This document shows, piece by piece, positions 52,701 through 58,208 of a stretch of 64,000 bases of DNA. The translations under genes were made by a program, and so were the position numbers. A model generated the notes under the pieces. That model was not told where the DNA came from. It saw only the letters and a program-made list of their open reading frames with translations, and searched no databases. The DNA is from Kineosporia babensis. GTDB taxonomy: Bacteria > Actinomycetota > Actinomycetes > Actinomycetales > Kineosporiaceae. The stretch is from assembly GCF_021129305.1 (NCBI RefSeq), contig NZ_JAJOMB010000007.1:1-64000 (forward strand). The letters are read 5' to 3'. The stretch's first letter is position 1. Every line of letters starts with the position of its first letter.

Positions 52701-53584
52701 GATTCCAGCGGGACCACCTGGAGACGCTGCTGGCCGCGGTCGACGAGGGCACCTTCGACGCGGCCGCAGCCCGGCTCCGCATCACCGCCTCGGCGGTGTC
52801 GCAGCGGATCAAGGCGATGGAGCAGGCCGCCGGGCGGATCCTGCTGCAGCGCACCACCCCGATCCGGCCGACCGCCGACGGTCAGGTGGTGGTGCGGCAT
52901 GCGCGTCAGGCCCTGCTGCTGGAGGGGGAGACGGCGCGGGCCCTGGCTCCCACCGACAGCACCCGCACGCCGTCGATAGCGCTTGCGGTCAATGCGGATT
53001 CGCTGGCCACCTGGTTCCTCGGCCCGCTGGCCGAGGTGCTGGAGGACACCGCGGTGGTGTTCGACCTGTATCGCGAGGACCAGGACCGGACGTCCGATCT
53101 GCTGCGCGCCGGAACGGTGATGGCGGCGGTGTCGGCGCAGTCGACTCCCGTACAGGGCTGCTCTTCGGTCAAATTGGGGACGATGCGGTACCACGCGGTG
53201 GCATCTGCGGCTTTTGTGGACCGGCACCTCCAGGGCGAGGTGGGCACCCAGGGCCTGGACGGCGTCCCGCTGGTCGACTTCGATCGCCAGGACCACATGC
53301 AGCACGCGTTCCTGCGCCGGGTGATCGGCCACGACCCGCGCTCACCGCGGCATTTCGTGCCCACCTCGGAGGATTTCGCCCGGGCGGTGCGGATGGGCCT
53401 GGGCTGGGGCATGCTGCCCGACCAGCAGTGTCAGGACGACCTGGCCACCGGAAGACTGCTGGCCCTGGCCCCGGACCGGCCGGCCGACGTCGAACTGTAC
53501 TGGCAGCGCTGGAAACTGGATTCGCCGCTGCTGGACCGGATCACCCGGGCGGTGCGGGAACACGCTGCCCGGGAGCTGCTCTAG
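52697..53584 (+). CDS. lysG: LysR-family regulator ArgP/LysG
   Basis: 295-residue LysR-type regulator. The helix-turn-helix is HLETLLAAVDEGTFDAAAARLRITASAVSQRIKAMEQ, followed by the ligand domain with VNADSLATWFLGPL. ArgP/LysG homologues sense lysine or arginine and control a divergently transcribed LysE/ArgO exporter, as found here. The stop overlaps that of the convergent ATPase gene by 4 bp (shared CTAG). Confidence 0.92.
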   Translation: MRFQRDHLETLLAAVDEGTFDAAAARLRITASAVSQRIKAMEQAAGRILLQRTTPIRPTADGQVVVRHARQALLLEGETARALAPTDSTRTPSIALAVNADSLATWFLGPLAEVLEDTAVVFDLYREDQDRTSDLLRAGTVMAAVSAQSTPVQGCSSVKLGTMRYHAVASAAFVDRHLQGEVGTQGLDGVPLVDFDRQDHMQHAFLRRVIGHDPRSPRHFVPTSEDFARAVRMGLGWGMLPDQQCQDDLATGRLLALAPDRPADVELYWQRWKLDSPLLDRITRAVREHAARELL

Positions 53585-54081
53585 GAAATGGCCGCCCGGT
53601 CGAGCGTGGCCAGCATGGACTTCGGCGGCGTGTCCCCGATCAGCGCCCAGACCAGCTTGCGGCCGCGCTCCAGGCACCAGCCGACCTCGAGCGACATCGA
53701 CATGACCAGGCGCAGGCCCAGACCGCCGACCGCGGTGATGTCCTGCCCCGGAGCGGCCGGGACCCGGGAGACCGAGCCGTCCGAGACGACCAGCAGCCAG
53801 CCCCGATTGCCGCGGGAGAGCGAGGCCGTCACCGGGGGCTCGGCGTGCCGCAGGCCGTTGGTGGTGAGCTCGCCCATCGTCATCGCCACCCGCTCGCTGG
53901 CGGCGGCGAACACATGCCCGGACGGGTGCGCGGCGTGATGCGACTCACCGGCCGCGGCGACCGCGCTGCGGGCCTCGGTCCGGGCCAGCACGGAACTGTC
54001 CACCGTGTCGATGTCCCAGTCCAGCCGCTGGGCCCAGAAACCGATCGGGGGACGGCCCTCGATCAGGACGGTGGCGTTCAC
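53581..54081 (-). CDS. RsbW-like ATP-binding protein (anti-sigma factor kinase family)
   Basis: 166-residue GHKL ATPase of the RsbW/SpoIIAB group. The N box ELTTNGLRH is at 71-79, the G1-box Asp-Gly at 101-102 and the GGLGL G2 box at 119-123. Such proteins hold a sigma factor and phosphorylate a STAS antagonist. The ATG overlaps the stop of the STAS gene by 4 bp, so the two are translated together. No sigma factor gene is in the window, so the target must lie elsewhere. It could also act in another partner switch. Confidence 0.9.
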   Translation of the reverse strand: MNATVLIEGRPPIGFWAQRLDWDIDTVDSSVLARTEARSAVAAAGESHHAAHPSGHVFAAASERVAMTMGELTTNGLRHAEPPVTASLSRGNRGWLLVVSDGSVSRVPAAPGQDITAVGGLGLRLVMSMSLEVGWCLERGRKLVWALIGDTPPKSMLATLDRAAIS

Positions 54082-54464
54082 GACTGGCCCGCGGACACAT
54101 CGGCCACCTGAGCTTCCTCGGGCAGCCAGCGGGCCAGATCGCCGGCGCCGACCAGGGTGATCAGCTCCGCCACCCGGCGCGAGGGCCCCTGGAGCAGCAG
54201 CTCGGCCCCGGTGCTGCGCAGCCCGGCCGCCAGCCGGACCACGAACGAGACCCCCACCGAGTCCATCATCGTGACGTGCCGGACATCCATCACCGTGCGC
54301 CGGCCGGCGTCGATCGAGAACCGGCCCGCGTACTCCAGTTCGTCGCTGACCCGGACGTCGATCTCACCGTGCAGGATGACCAGCGTGTGATCGTCCTGGG
54401 CGAGGACCACGACGTCTCCGGGGGCGTCGTTCTCCGGTTCCGAGGTCTGGTGATCCCTGGACAC
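54078..54464 (-). CDS. STAS-domain anti-sigma factor antagonist (RsbV-like)
   Basis: 128-residue STAS protein. VVVLAQDDHTLVILHGEIDVRVS forms the first strands and VRHVTMMDSVGVSFVVRL the switch helix; Ser69 in MDSVG is the expected phosphorylation site of RsbV/SpoIIAA proteins. When unphosphorylated it should bind the RsbW-like ATPase encoded next and free a sigma factor. GTG 54464 has GGGAGG upstream; a longer frame to 54560 would run into the divergent promoter region. Confidence 0.92.
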   Translation of the reverse strand: MSRDHQTSEPENDAPGDVVVLAQDDHTLVILHGEIDVRVSDELEYAGRFSIDAGRRTVMDVRHVTMMDSVGVSFVVRLAAGLRSTGAELLLQGPSRRVAELITLVGAGDLARWLPEEAQVADVSAGQS

Positions 54465-54577
54465 CTTCGCCTCCCTGTCTGCAGTTTCTGCCCCGAGGCA
54501 GTCTCCCCGTCTGCCCAGTTCGTCCTGCACCAGCACCCTCGTCACCTCTTCTTGATGCACGGGATCCGGGCAGCTTG

Positions 54578-54600
54578 CCTGGTTATGCTAGCTCACCAGG
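54578..54600. promoter_or_regulatory. Dyad between the STAS and heme oxygenase genes
   Basis: CCTGGT at 54578-54583 and ACCAGG at 54595-54600 form a 6-bp inverted repeat with an 11-nt spacer that contains a GCTAGC core. It lies in the 199-bp region from which both gene pairs diverge, so one site could control the whole module. No sigma-factor consensus is clear. Confidence 0.35.
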
Positions 54601-54663
54601 TATTTCCTGCCTCTGCTCTTGATCCCCCGCGCACCATGTCCGCGAGCACCAGGAGGACCGGCG

Positions 54664-55293
54664 ATGAGCGCTACCCCCGAACAGGCTTCCCCTGGAGGCC
54701 ACGGCGTCGAGGCCTTACGGGCGGCCACCCGGCAGGCCCACGACCGGCTGGATTCCCTGGTCGACCTGCAGGCCTGGAGTCCGGCCGTGCACCAGTGGTG
54801 GCTGCAGCGGATGCTCGGCCTGCACGAACCGCTGGAGCACGACCTCGGCAGCTGGCAGTCCACCCGACCGGCCGAGCACCGGGTGCCCGACGTAAAGGTA
54901 CGGCGACGCTCCGGCGCCATCGCGGCCGACCTGCGCAGCCTAGGCCTGAGCGAGGCCGAGGTGCGCGCGCTCCCCCGCAGCCCCCGGCCCGCGCCTGCGA
55001 CCGGTGAACTTGCCCTGGGCCGGGTCCTCGGGCAGCTTTACGTGCTGGACGGCTCGGCCCTGGGCGGTGCGGTGATCGCGGCGCACGCCATCTCGGCCGG
55101 CATCCCGCAGGAAGCGTGCACCAGCCTGTCGCACTCCAAGGAAAGGATCGTCTCGTGGCGCGAGACCAAGCGCCTGCTGGACGATCTCAGCCCCGAGGAG
55201 CTGTCCGAGGCGGTACGGGCGGCGATCGAGCTGTTCGCCGTGTTCGAGGCCTGGCTGCACACCCCGATCCGGCCGCACGGTAAGGAACAGTGA
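54664..55293 (+). CDS. bphO: Biliverdin-producing heme oxygenase (BphO type)
   Basis: 209-residue heme oxygenase that oxidises heme to biliverdin, the phytochrome chromophore. His26 in ATRQAHDRLDSL is the proximal heme ligand; LGRVLGQLYVLDGSALGG matches the distal helix of bacteriophytochrome-linked heme oxygenases. GGAGGACCGGCG precedes the ATG. The phytochrome gene starts at GTG 55290 inside its stop (GTGA), which couples chromophore and apoprotein production. Confidence 0.93.
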   Translation: MSATPEQASPGGHGVEALRAATRQAHDRLDSLVDLQAWSPAVHQWWLQRMLGLHEPLEHDLGSWQSTRPAEHRVPDVKVRRRSGAIAADLRSLGLSEAEVRALPRSPRPAPATGELALGRVLGQLYVLDGSALGGAVIAAHAISAGIPQEACTSLSHSKERIVSWRETKRLLDDLSPEELSEAVRAAIELFAVFEAWLHTPIRPHGKEQ

Positions 55294-57500
55294 GCGAACA
55301 ACAGGTCAGCCCGCCGGATCTCGGCGACTGCGCACGGGAGCCGATTCAGTACCCGGGTTCGGTGCAGCCCCACGGCGTGCTGGTGGTGCTGCACGCCCAC
55401 CGGCACACGCTGCTCACCGCCTCCGAGAGCCTCGCCGAGTTCCTGCCCGAGGCCCAGGCGCAGCCGGGCACGCCCGCTGCGCTGGTGTTCGGTCCGCAGC
55501 TGTGGGCGGAGGTGGCCCAGCGCGTCGCCGAGGACGACCTGCTGGAGCCGATCCGCTGGCTGGGCCCGGAGGGCAGCCGCTGGGCCGGGCGGGCGGTCGA
55601 CGTTCTGGTGCACTTCTCCGGCGAGAACCGGCTGGTGGTGGAACTGGAGGCGGTGAGCGAGGAGTCACTGGGGCGTTCGGTCTCGCTGTCGGCCACCAAC
55701 ACCCAGATCGGCCGGCTTCGAGCGGCCGCCACCTCCGGCGCGGTCTTCGAGCGGCTCACCGCGGCGGTGCAACGGGTCACCGGGTTCGACCGGGTGATGG
55801 TCTACCGCTTCGACCGGGAGTGGAACGGCGAGGTGATCGCCGAGCAGCGCCGCCCGCATCTGGAACCGTTCCTCGGCCTGCGCTACCCGGAGTCGGACAT
55901 CCCCGCCCAGGCCCGAAAGCTGTACGCGGTAAACCGGCTTCGCTTCATCGTGGACTCGCACGCCGACGCCGCCCGGCTGCTCCCCCGGGTGCCCGAGGAC
56001 GGCGAGGGCGAGCTGGACCTGAGCTTCGCCCCACTGCGCAGCGTCTCCCCGGTTCACCTGGAATACCTGCGAGGCATGGGAGTTCGGGCCTCGATGTCGG
56101 TCTCGATGGTACGCAACGGCGTGCTCTGGGGCCTGGTCGCCTGCCACCACTACTCGGCGCCGCTGCAGCCCTCGCACGACGAGCGGGCCGCGGCCGACTT
56201 CCTCACCCAGGCCGCCATGGAGATCGTCACCACCCGCGAGACCAGCGAGGACGCGGCCCGGCTGGCGGCCGGGCAACGCCGGCTGGAGCGGCTGCTGCCC
56301 GTTCTCGAACAGCCTCAGCTCGCTCCCACCGAGGCGCTGGCCGGGGCCGACCTGGCGCTGGTGGCCGGTCTGGCCGATGCCAGCGGCGTGGTGGTGCGGG
56401 CCGGGGCCGTGCAGAGCACCTGGGGTGTTGCACCGGAACCGGCTGTGGCGGAACAGATCGTGGCCCGGCTGGCGCGTACCGACGGGGTGCCCGCGTTCAC
56501 CGACGACCTGGCCGACCTGGGTACCGACGAGGTGGCCGGGGCGCTGGTGCTGCCGCTCAGCCCGGGCCACTGGATGCTCTGGCTGAACCGGGCGGTGGAG
56601 CGCACGGTGCGCTGGGCCGGCGACCCGCACGACAAGACGATCACGATCCGCTCCGATGGCACCGCCCGGATCGGGCCCCGGAAGTCGTTCGCGGCGGCCG
56701 AGGAGAAGCTGCAGGGCCGCAGCGCGCCCTGGGACTCCTGGAAGGTGCAGGCGGTGGCCGCGCTGGGCACCGCCGCCACCGCGCAACTGCGCCGCTACGA
56801 GCGCGACGCCGTGAGCATCGTCGAGGATCTGCACGACTCGCTCCAGCCCTCACGCCTGCCGCACGTGCCCGGGGCCGAACTGCAGGTGCGCTACGTGCCC
56901 GCCCCGGACGGAAGGTTTGCCGGGGACTGGTGGGACTGCTTCGAGCTGCCCGGCGGCAAGCTCGCTCTGGTGGTCGGCGACGTGACCGGCCACGGCAGCG
57001 CGGTCACCGCCACGATGACCCAGCTGCGCACCGCCCTGCGGGCCTACCTCCTCGAGGGCGCTCCCCCGGCCGAGACCCTGGCCCGGCTGGATGCGCTGGC
57101 CAACCTGGTGTTCCGGCCGACCCTGGCCACGGTGGTGCTGGCGTTGTACGACTGCGCCACCGGCGGCCTGGAGATCGCCCGGGCCGGTCATCCGCACCCG
57201 GTGCTGGCCCAGGCCGGGCCGATCCTGATGGATGCCCGGCTGCCGGTCGGGCTGGGTGTGGACACGCCGGCGGTCTCCTGGTCGGGCACCCTCGAGCCGG
57301 GCGAGACGCTGGTGCTGTACTCCGACGGGCTCAGCGAGGACCGCCGGCTCTCACCCGAGGAGAGCATCCAGCGCCTGGCCGGCACCGTCGCCGAGGTCGG
57401 CCAGGAGCCGCTGGCGAAGCTGGCCGATGCGCTGATCGAGGCCGCGCCCCAGCCCCGCACCGACGACACCACGCTGCTGGCCATCCGCCGCAAGCTCTAG
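55290..57500 (+). CDS. Bacteriophytochrome with SpoIIE/PP2C phosphatase output
   Basis: 736-residue photoreceptor. Residues about 1-130 are the PAS domain with Cys14 in DCAREPIQYPGS, the biliverdin attachment site. About 145-320 are GAF (ESDIPAQARKLY at 201-212; His257, His286-287). About 325-500 are PHY with tongue PRKSF at 463-467. The output (about 510-736) is an SpoIIE-type PP2C phosphatase: D546/D549 in GDWWDCF, D564 in GDVTGHG, D679 in LYSDG, D725-726 in DDTT. No histidine kinase domain. It should dephosphorylate a STAS protein under red or far-red light control; the STAS gene lies divergently upstream. Confidence 0.94.
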   Translation: MSEQQVSPPDLGDCAREPIQYPGSVQPHGVLVVLHAHRHTLLTASESLAEFLPEAQAQPGTPAALVFGPQLWAEVAQRVAEDDLLEPIRWLGPEGSRWAGRAVDVLVHFSGENRLVVELEAVSEESLGRSVSLSATNTQIGRLRAAATSGAVFERLTAAVQRVTGFDRVMVYRFDREWNGEVIAEQRRPHLEPFLGLRYPESDIPAQARKLYAVNRLRFIVDSHADAARLLPRVPEDGEGELDLSFAPLRSVSPVHLEYLRGMGVRASMSVSMVRNGVLWGLVACHHYSAPLQPSHDERAAADFLTQAAMEIVTTRETSEDAARLAAGQRRLERLLPVLEQPQLAPTEALAGADLALVAGLADASGVVVRAGAVQSTWGVAPEPAVAEQIVARLARTDGVPAFTDDLADLGTDEVAGALVLPLSPGHWMLWLNRAVERTVRWAGDPHDKTITIRSDGTARIGPRKSFAAAEEKLQGRSAPWDSWKVQAVAALGTAATAQLRRYERDAVSIVEDLHDSLQPSRLPHVPGAELQVRYVPAPDGRFAGDWWDCFELPGGKLALVVGDVTGHGSAVTATMTQLRTALRAYLLEGAPPAETLARLDALANLVFRPTLATVVLALYDCATGGLEIARAGHPHPVLAQAGPILMDARLPVGLGVDTPAVSWSGTLEPGETLVLYSDGLSEDRRLSPEESIQRLAGTVAEVGQEPLAKLADALIEAAPQPRTDDTTLLAIRRKL

Positions 57501-57539
57501 GACCAGACGCAATACAACCCTAGGACCAGACGCAGTACA
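57497..57539. repeat. 20-bp direct repeat at the phytochrome/DUF202 junction
   Basis: CTAGGACCAGACGCARTACA occurs at 57497-57516 and 57520-57539 with one mismatch. The first copy contains the phytochrome stop codon; the second is the 3' end of the convergent DUF202 gene. Looks like a short tandem duplication. Confidence 0.85.
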
Positions 57540-57837
57540 GGGCCCCCAGGGCGAGCACGATGGTGAGCAGCGTGCCCACCAGCACCGCTCGCGGACCGTG
57601 CACCGGATCGGCCTGGTTGAAGTCGGTGACCCGGCCGCGGTGCCGGGCCCGCTGGACCAGCCCCAGCCCGGCCGCGGTGATCACCCCGGCCATCGCCAGC
57701 AGGATCGCCACCACGATGGTCTCCGGCCGGCCGGTGCGGATCAGCAGCAGCGAGACCACCGCGAAGGCCAGTGCGGTCCGGATCCAGGCCAGAGTGGTCC
57801 GCTCGACCTGGAGCCCGGGATCGTCCGAGCGGGCCAT
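57520..57837 (-). CDS. DUF202 family membrane protein (short)
   Basis: 105-residue protein with three hydrophobic helices and the DUF202 start LQVERTTLAWIRTALAFAVVS. DUF202 proteins occur in tandem pairs in many bacteria; function unknown. The start overlaps the stop of the upstream DUF202 gene by one base (TGATG), so the pair is coupled. Convergent with the phytochrome gene. Confidence 0.88.
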   Translation of the reverse strand: MARSDDPGLQVERTTLAWIRTALAFAVVSLLLIRTGRPETIVVAILLAMAGVITAAGLGLVQRARHRGRVTDFNQADPVHGPRAVLVGTLLTIVLALGALYCVWS

Positions 57838-58208
57838 CAGCTGGTCAGCAGGACAACACCGACCAGCACCAGCGCAGCCAGGCCGACGCCGTAGCCGATC
57901 AGCCCGACCATCCCGAGCAGGGGCAGCGGCTCACCGGCCCGCATCGCCCGCTCACCGGCCCACCAGCGGCGGTAGGCGGCCACCGCCAGGGCCCCGCCCA
58001 TCAGCAGCAGGACCGAGCTGATCAGTTCCCGTTCCAGGTCGGGGACATCGGTCAGGAAGGCGTCCGCACCGATGCCGCCGGCGATCAGGCCCAGCGACGT
58101 GCGGATCCAGGCCAGGAACGTGCGTTCGTTGGCCAGGGTGAACCGCGGGTCCGGAGCCTTCCCCTCGGAGAGGAGCTTGCGCTCCCAGGAAGGCACCATG
58201 CTTCCCAT
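57837..58208 (-). CDS. DUF202 family membrane protein (YidH type)
   Basis: 123-residue protein. TLANERTFLAWIRTSLGLIAGGIG is the YidH/DUF202 signature, followed by two more helices (ELISSVLLLMGGALAVAAYRRWW and LGMVGLIGYGVGLAALVLVGVVLL). Function unknown. First gene of the two-gene unit. The ATG at 58199 is an alternative start. Confidence 0.88.
   Translation of the reverse strand: MGSMVPSWERKLLSEGKAPDPRFTLANERTFLAWIRTSLGLIAGGIGADAFLTDVPDLERELISSVLLLMGGALAVAAYRRWWAGERAMRAGEPLPLLGMVGLIGYGVGLAALVLVGVVLLTS

Follow-up and report, generated by a model that had tools for sequence, protein, structure and literature searches.

In this work, we describe a group of four genes from Kineosporia babensis that probably constitutes a red/far-red light-controlled partner-switching module. 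The genes lie at positions 53581–57500 of a 64,000-nucleotide stretch of DNA (positions 1 to 64,000 of contig NZ_JAJOMB010000007.1, assembly GCF_021129305.1, from a genome of 9.4 Mb), to which we refer at its full length as the window, and they encode a heme oxygenase, a bacteriophytochrome fused to a SpoIIE-type phosphatase, a STAS protein, and an RsbW-like ATPase. An earlier note on this DNA had proposed that the phytochrome-phosphatase and its pigment enzyme stand beside the STAS/ATPase pair on which the phosphatase most likely acts, and this is supported both by the recurrence of the association in other genera and by a paralogous locus. We also find two translationally coupled pairs diverging from a 199-bp region, with the coordinates and both 4-bp overlaps as that note gave them, and the four gene families as it assigned them, with the chromophore Cys, the PP2C Asp residues, the STAS Ser, and the ATPase N-box all present. 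The features of the locus are as follows:

53581..54081, minus strand: RsbW/SpoIIAB-like ATPase, probable STAS serine kinase; its GTG start overlaps the STAS stop codon by 4 bp (conserved residues, predicted structure, profile search)
54078..54464, minus strand: single-domain STAS protein of the anti-anti-sigma type with an MMDSVG loop (STAS 44.2 bits; conserved Ser)
54465..54663, no strand: divergent intergenic region of 199 bp (sequence; alignment of six Kineosporia)
54569..54611, no strand: 43-bp conserved block, a probable promoter or operator element for the divergent genes (alignment of six Kineosporia)
54664..55293, plus strand: heme oxygenase (BphO-like), likely biliverdin source (PF01126, 33.1 bits)
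55290..57500, plus strand: bacteriophytochrome PAS-GAF-PHY fused to a SpoIIE/PP2C phosphatase; its GTG start overlaps the heme oxygenase stop codon by 4 bp (Pfam, conserved residues, model)

The 199 bp is the distance between the start codons of the STAS and heme oxygenase genes. This four-gene order is kept in all six Kineosporia genomes searched (the window's and the five others), and the five others also share with the window the flanking LysE, LysR, luciferase-like, and two DUF202 genes.

Domain Composition and Conserved Residues of the Four Proteins

All four Pfam domains of the phytochrome-phosphatase score above their cut-offs (PAS_2 53.5, GAF 54.6, PHY 81.3, and SpoIIE 140.2 bits), and residues C14, D203, H256, H286, R464, D546, D564, D679, D725, and D726 are invariant in 65 of 65 phytochrome-SpoIIE proteins, the window's included. 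We take C14, D203, H256, H286, and R464 to be chromophore-pocket and tongue residues, among them the N-terminal chromophore Cys and the DIP/His pocket, and D546, D564, D679, D725, and D726 to be the metal-binding Asp residues of PP2C. The protein has the PAS-GAF-PHY core, chromophore Cys, and DIP/His pocket residues of a bacteriophytochrome (BphP), together with the SpoIIE domain and metal-binding Asp residues of a SpoIIE/PPM phosphatase. Biliverdin binding, photoconversion, and any effect of light on this protein are what we infer from its sequence. Trp481 and Asp546 are 63 residues apart in 64 of the 65 proteins and 62 apart in the other, and in the predicted structure (mean predicted local distance difference test score, pLDDT, of 87) one helix, 483–518, runs from the PHY domain to the phosphatase. 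The fixed linker length and the single modeled helix fit the coiled-coil linker model of PPM phosphatases, as it is outlined in PMC12143880.

The heme oxygenase scores 33.1 bits against PF01126 (Pfam cut-off of 23 bits), and its closest solved structures are pa-HO and HemO. It is the sole match to this model in its own genome at E ≤ 0.001; we note, however, that the model misses three of the five Kineosporia orthologues (G001, G003, and G004), even though these are 68–72% identical to the window protein, such that a divergent second heme oxygenase copy may be present in the genome. The enzyme is likely the biliverdin source for the phytochrome.

The STAS protein consists of a single STAS domain (44.2 bits, above the Pfam cut-off) with a Ser in the conserved MMDSVG loop, as in RsbV/SpoIIAA antagonists, and is 75–85% identical to its orthologues in the five other Kineosporia. 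Its reading frame is open upstream to 54560, and the GTG start at 54464, with a GGAGG just 5′ of it, is kept in the alignment of six Kineosporia. The loop Ser is aligned and kept in 29 of 29 phytochrome-linked STAS proteins (window included), and it is at this residue that the protein would be phosphorylated and dephosphorylated. In Nocardioides, the loop of the phytochrome-linked STAS protein reads MPSLA or FPSLA rather than DSTG in five of seven cases (L020, L022, L023, L095, and L069), at a position where other phytochrome-linked STAS proteins carry DS(S/T/V/G)G.

As in the RsbW/SpoIIAB family, the neighboring protein has an ATPase fold with an N-box (E71, N75) and a G2 box (G120, G122), and these four residues, together with D101, are invariant in 11 of 11 aligned ATPase sequences, the window's among them. 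The 11 best PDB matches of its predicted structure (mean pLDDT of 86) are SpoIIAB, UsfX, and RsbW chains solved with STAS or sigma partners, with TM-scores of approximately 0.5 by query length, and a profile built from the ATPase alignment finds RsbW and SpoIIAB first. Taking sequence and model together, this ATPase is a probable STAS serine kinase.

Recurrence of the Association in Other Genomes

In a class-wide sample of 394 genomes from 138 genera (matches at E ≤ 1e-70, with at most two candidates scored per genome), phytochrome-SpoIIE matches were obtained in 30 genomes, the window's included, and in 10 genera, and all 34 matches listed reach the SpoIIE domain. For the count of gene neighborhoods, 64 non-redundant loci were kept, excluding the window; the flanks of L036, L040, and L114 were too short for a 1.5-kb count, which leaves 61 loci with no less than 1.5 kb to either side. 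Dropped beforehand were L001 (the window), short or second copies (L006–L016, L117, and L118), near-copies or loci from the same genome or contig as L028, L053, and L062 (L029, L054, and L068, respectively), loci without a phytochrome (L002–L005), and loci without a full-length match (L073–L076, L079, L080, and L082–L094, together with loci fetched for other reasons). Neighboring STAS and ATPase genes were called with profiles seeded with the window proteins (E ≤ 1e-3); a Pfam re-check covered the STAS protein and ATPase of L020, the ATPase of L043, and a fusion protein in L062, each of which scores above the STAS or HATPase_c_2 cut-off for the claimed domain.

Within 1.5 kb of the phytochrome-SpoIIE gene, we find a STAS gene in 26 of the 61 loci, an ATPase gene in 19, both in 18, and a heme oxygenase gene in 10. 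For the 56 loci outside Kineosporia, the corresponding numbers are 21, 14, 13, and 5, with 22 loci having STAS and/or ATPase nearby, and 29 having none of the three. The background rate (106 STAS and 297 HATPase_c_2 matches in 47.9 Mb from 11 genomes of these loci) leads one to expect 0.007 STAS and 0.020 ATPase genes per locus by chance, or approximately 0.4 and 1.1 per 56 loci. No STAS or ATPase match was found at 19 loci where the phytochrome match stops short of SpoIIE (L073–L076, L079, L080, and L082–L094), although this is a weak control, as these loci are non-actinobacterial and some flanks are short.

The compact four-gene assembly had been singled out as the unusual part of the locus. 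The full set is indeed confined to Kineosporia among the loci examined, with no instance in the 56 loci outside that genus, but a phytochrome-SpoIIE gene with STAS and/or ATPase nearby is more widespread, as in the 22 of 56 loci just mentioned. Among the loci examined, the proposed search for co-occurrence returned all four genes together in six of six Kineosporia, and no more than partial sets in other genera.

Gene Layouts, a Paralogous Locus, and Likely Origin of the Module

The layout of the association varies by lineage. STAS and then ATPase lie directly downstream of the phytochrome-SpoIIE gene in four Nocardioides, while STAS alone is downstream in five Aeromicrobium and in actinobacterium LLX17. 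Cellulosimicrobium, Isoptericola, and two further genomes have convergent ATPase and STAS genes downstream; two Blastococcus and one Nocardioides have STAS upstream with a divergent ATPase; L043, L045, L059, L065, and L116 each have an arrangement of their own; and the divergent four-gene layout is that of Kineosporia. On a quick phytochrome tree, STAS adjacency changes at least 9 times, and labels combining layout and heme oxygenase at least 16 times.

A paralogous locus, L104 (G000:C34:205000–212000), has the same divergent layout as the window, with an ATPase-STAS pair diverging from a GAF-SpoIIE phosphatase gene; its sensor is a GAF domain and no heme oxygenase match was found in the stretch examined. 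Loci of this type are present in six of six Kineosporia. Over the aligned parts, the window proteins are 47% (STAS) and 36% (ATPase) identical to those of L104, whereas the window STAS is at most 33% identical to any phytochrome-linked STAS outside Kineosporia, and a STAS tree joins the window and L104 proteins at 99/96 (124 columns, long branches). Based on the shared layout and on the window STAS being nearer to that of L104 than to phytochrome-linked STAS proteins elsewhere, these sequences are most simply explained by a pre-existing ATPase-STAS module whose sensor-phosphatase has been swapped or duplicated. We do not favor descent of the loci of all lineages from one ancestral assembly, as layouts vary by lineage and, in the STAS tree, the Kineosporia protein joins the GAF-linked paralogue of its own genus. 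Independent assembly in different lineages is likely, although three of the changes may represent a single gain plus two losses.

Two further STAS genes deserve mention. In Cellulomonas sp. HZM, an RsbW-like ATPase-STAS fusion (L062:1725–2573) lies 3.4–3.7 kb from the phytochrome-SpoIIE gene, and this set repeats, inverted, on the same contig (L068). In K. mesophila (G002:C44, L145/L146), a short contig carries a third STAS gene, with 59% identity to that of the window, near genes for receiver-domain and BLUF blue-light proteins.

Proposed Mechanism and Alternative Explanations

In the mechanism that we propose, the heme oxygenase would supply biliverdin, which would be bound at Cys14 of the phytochrome. 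Photoconversion would be transmitted along the continuous helix 483–518 from the PHY to the PP2C domain and would alter phosphatase activity, probably through altered packing of the dimer's two phosphatase domains. The phosphatase would strip phosphate from the MMDSVG Ser of the adjoining STAS protein, while the adjoining ATPase would be the opposing kinase and would bind the unphosphorylated STAS. The output would be the pool of unphosphorylated STAS, which may pull the module's ATPase off a target or, alternatively, act in trans on RsbW-like proteins encoded beside two SigB-type genes. The role of the STAS protein as the "exact substrate" of the phosphatase, in the words of the earlier note, is likewise inferred, as is which way light would shift the phosphatase.

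Several observations weigh against this interpretation. At the level of the individual proteins, the phytochrome scores 258.5 bits against the NCBIfam BphP equivalog NF041576 (cut-off of 1040), the STAS protein 43.4 bits against ant_ant_sig TIGR00377 (cut-off of 53.45), and the ATPase 23.5 bits against HATPase_c_2 (Pfam cut-off of 27.4), all of which are below threshold; as the ATPase falls short of the Pfam score, its identity is drawn from the conserved residues, predicted structure, and profile search described above. Its G1 box (SDGSVS) also looks weak. At the level of the locus, no sigma factor gene was found in the flanks (5.6–6.1 kb) of the five Kineosporia loci with a profile seeded on a SigB-type gene. 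In addition, STAS/ATPase genes also adjoin SpoIIE genes with other sensors, as in the GAF-SpoIIE locus of the same genome, such that the adjacency marks a partner-switching module and nothing special to light. Finally, 35 of the 61 loci have no STAS gene within 1.5 kb, and 29 have neither STAS, ATPase, nor heme oxygenase, meaning that adjacency is not obligatory, though it is far above chance.

Those 35 loci would suit an explanation in which the two gene pairs are functionally separate, with the phosphatase acting on another STAS protein, such as the one from the paralogous locus, and the adjacency a leftover of common ancestry of the layout. Cross-talk of this kind is made plausible by the higher identity of the window STAS to its GAF-SpoIIE-linked counterpart (47%) than to phytochrome-linked ones outside Kineosporia (33% at most). 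We nevertheless consider such a separation unlikely, since the divergent arrangement is kept in six of six Kineosporia and the association recurs in other lineages with different layouts. It is still more improbable, in our view, that the phytochrome is no light switch, and that the phosphatase responds to nothing more than biliverdin or redox binding: while the sequence gives no sign of photochemistry, the five chromophore-pocket and tongue residues examined are invariant in all 65 proteins, and the genes for heme oxygenase and phytochrome overlap in the window, adjoin each other in the five other Kineosporia, and are no more than 1.5 kb apart in 5 of the 56 other loci.

Output of the Proposed Module and the Sigma Factor Question

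While a light-controlled switch acting on the STAS protein thus remains our preferred explanation, the earlier note had taken this one step further, with light releasing a sigma factor. This step is less supported, as the locus yielded no sigma gene and the genome's two SigB-type genes each have an RsbW-like neighbor. The genome contains 18 matches to the SigBFG model, none of them in the window; two score above cut-off, both elsewhere in the genome, and each has an RsbW-like gene just upstream. The products of these upstream genes (L105:2297–2839 and L106:2384–2923), with HATPase_c_2 scores of 22.7 and 23.1 bits that are also under the cut-off, seem to be without the N-box Asn and the G2 glycines, a tentative assignment at 15 and 22% identity, whereas the window ATPase retains both. 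This contrast between degenerate sigma-adjacent proteins and an intact window ATPase suggests, from the residues involved, a division of labor, in which the module's kinase and STAS would act in trans on degenerate anti-sigma proteins. We rejected the idea that a sigma factor gene is a conserved member of the locus, as strong matches at up to 5.2 kb occur in three Aeromicrobium loci only (L024, L081, and L034, at 2.3–5.2 kb from the phytochrome-SpoIIE-STAS genes); the other matches are weak (L070, at 4.3 kb) or beyond 5.4 kb (L060 and L077).

A quite possible alternative, to which we would give somewhat less than even weight, is the same light-to-STAS switch with an output other than a sigma factor, in which the ATPase would be only the STAS kinase and the unphosphorylated STAS protein would regulate some other protein, as in non-canonical STAS systems like that of SypA in Vibrio fischeri. 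This overlaps with our preferred explanation, which leaves the target open. It is in line with the lack of sigma matches in the five Kineosporia flanks and the window, with the RsbW-like proteins adjacent to both SigB-type genes, and with the 38 HATPase_c_2 matches in the genome, many of them weak, compared to two SigBFG genes above cut-off; moreover, passages of a review (PMC8256260) describe STAS proteins that function although no sigma target is known for them. Conversely, among solved structures the ATPase is nearest in fold to anti-sigma kinases; the sigma-adjacent RsbW-like proteins, if they are indeed missing the N-box Asn and the G2 glycines, might depend on a kinase from another locus; and a strong sigma match is found 2.3–5.2 kb away in the three Aeromicrobium loci. 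More far-reaching, and in our estimation doubtful, is a scenario in which the Kineosporia STAS paralogues form a light/stress hub, where red light, a GAF signal, and possibly blue light (in K. mesophila) would converge on the two SigB-type factors through the apparently kinase-degenerate RsbW-like proteins.

Relation to Known Systems

A figure of PMC9587094 shows phytochromes with a SpoIIE/PPM-type phosphatase output as one class of effector. The domain composition is the same as here (PAS-GAF-PHY with a SpoIIE-type phosphatase), but the passages concerned give the effector class only, with no mention there of partners or gene neighborhood. Passages of PMC4844311 cover blue-light flavin receptors whose output is SpoIIE or STAS, LOV-STAS proteins among them; these likewise join a photoreceptor to SpoIIE or STAS, whereas in the present case the receptor is a phytochrome and the STAS protein is separate and encoded nearby. 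Saccharothrix photocobilins are predicted, in the part of PMC10979010 concerned, to interact with STAS, SpoIIE, and PP2C-like proteins, such that a bilin light sensor acting on STAS/SpoIIE proteins is proposed in both cases; there, however, the sensor is a B12-bilin protein within a predicted interaction network, unlike the phytochrome-phosphatase fusion here.

The B. subtilis RsbU/RsbP-RsbV-RsbW system, as presented in sections of PMC12143880, has in common with the window a PPM phosphatase with an N-terminal sensor and helical linker, a STAS antagonist, and an RsbW kinase. The window differs from that sigma-B system in having a full phytochrome as sensor, in the overlap of the sensor gene with one for heme oxygenase, and in the locus having yielded no sigma gene. 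As reported in PMC3019169, B. subtilis SigB is activated by red light through RsbP/RsbQ, so that red light reaches a partner-switching phosphatase in both systems, with RsbP carrying a PAS domain (PMC12143880). A cyanobacterial GAF-SpoIIE phosphatase is required for high-light tolerance, as stated in PMC9430166. Among the papers listed from the open-licence literature searched (titles, starts of abstracts, and passages), we found none describing a phytochrome phosphatase that has a STAS/ATPase switch of its own. Phytochrome-SpoIIE proteins, and SpoIIE/STAS proteins otherwise linked to light, had already been published.

If the chain works as proposed here, it would be a phytochrome pathway controlling a serine-phosphorylated switch without histidine-to-aspartate phosphotransfer or cyclic di-GMP. 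Sensors have been proposed, in the passages of PMC12143880 on this point, to be exchangeable on PPM phosphatases via coiled-coil linkers. As the state of a phytochrome can be set by light and the linker length is fixed, this family would offer a direct test of that proposal, and the paralogous GAF-SpoIIE locus would be a natural sensor swap over related STAS/ATPase partners. A possible use is as a red-light tool for bacterial transcription.

The Divergent Intergenic Region and Adjacent Genes

Within the 199-bp region, the 43-bp stretch at 54569–54611 is conserved in the alignment of six Kineosporia and is probably a promoter or operator of the divergent pair, to which we assign no sigma type. 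A scan of the block for a sigma-70 consensus gave no match. It could be read either as a TANNNT −10 element (TATGCT) or as a SigB-like site (GTTA, then GGGATT). A 28-base pattern derived from the block occurs once in the genome at up to three mismatches, which does not support a regulon-wide element. Directly downstream of, and convergent with, the phytochrome gene, two DUF202 genes (57520–58208) overlap each other by one base and are kept in the six Kineosporia.

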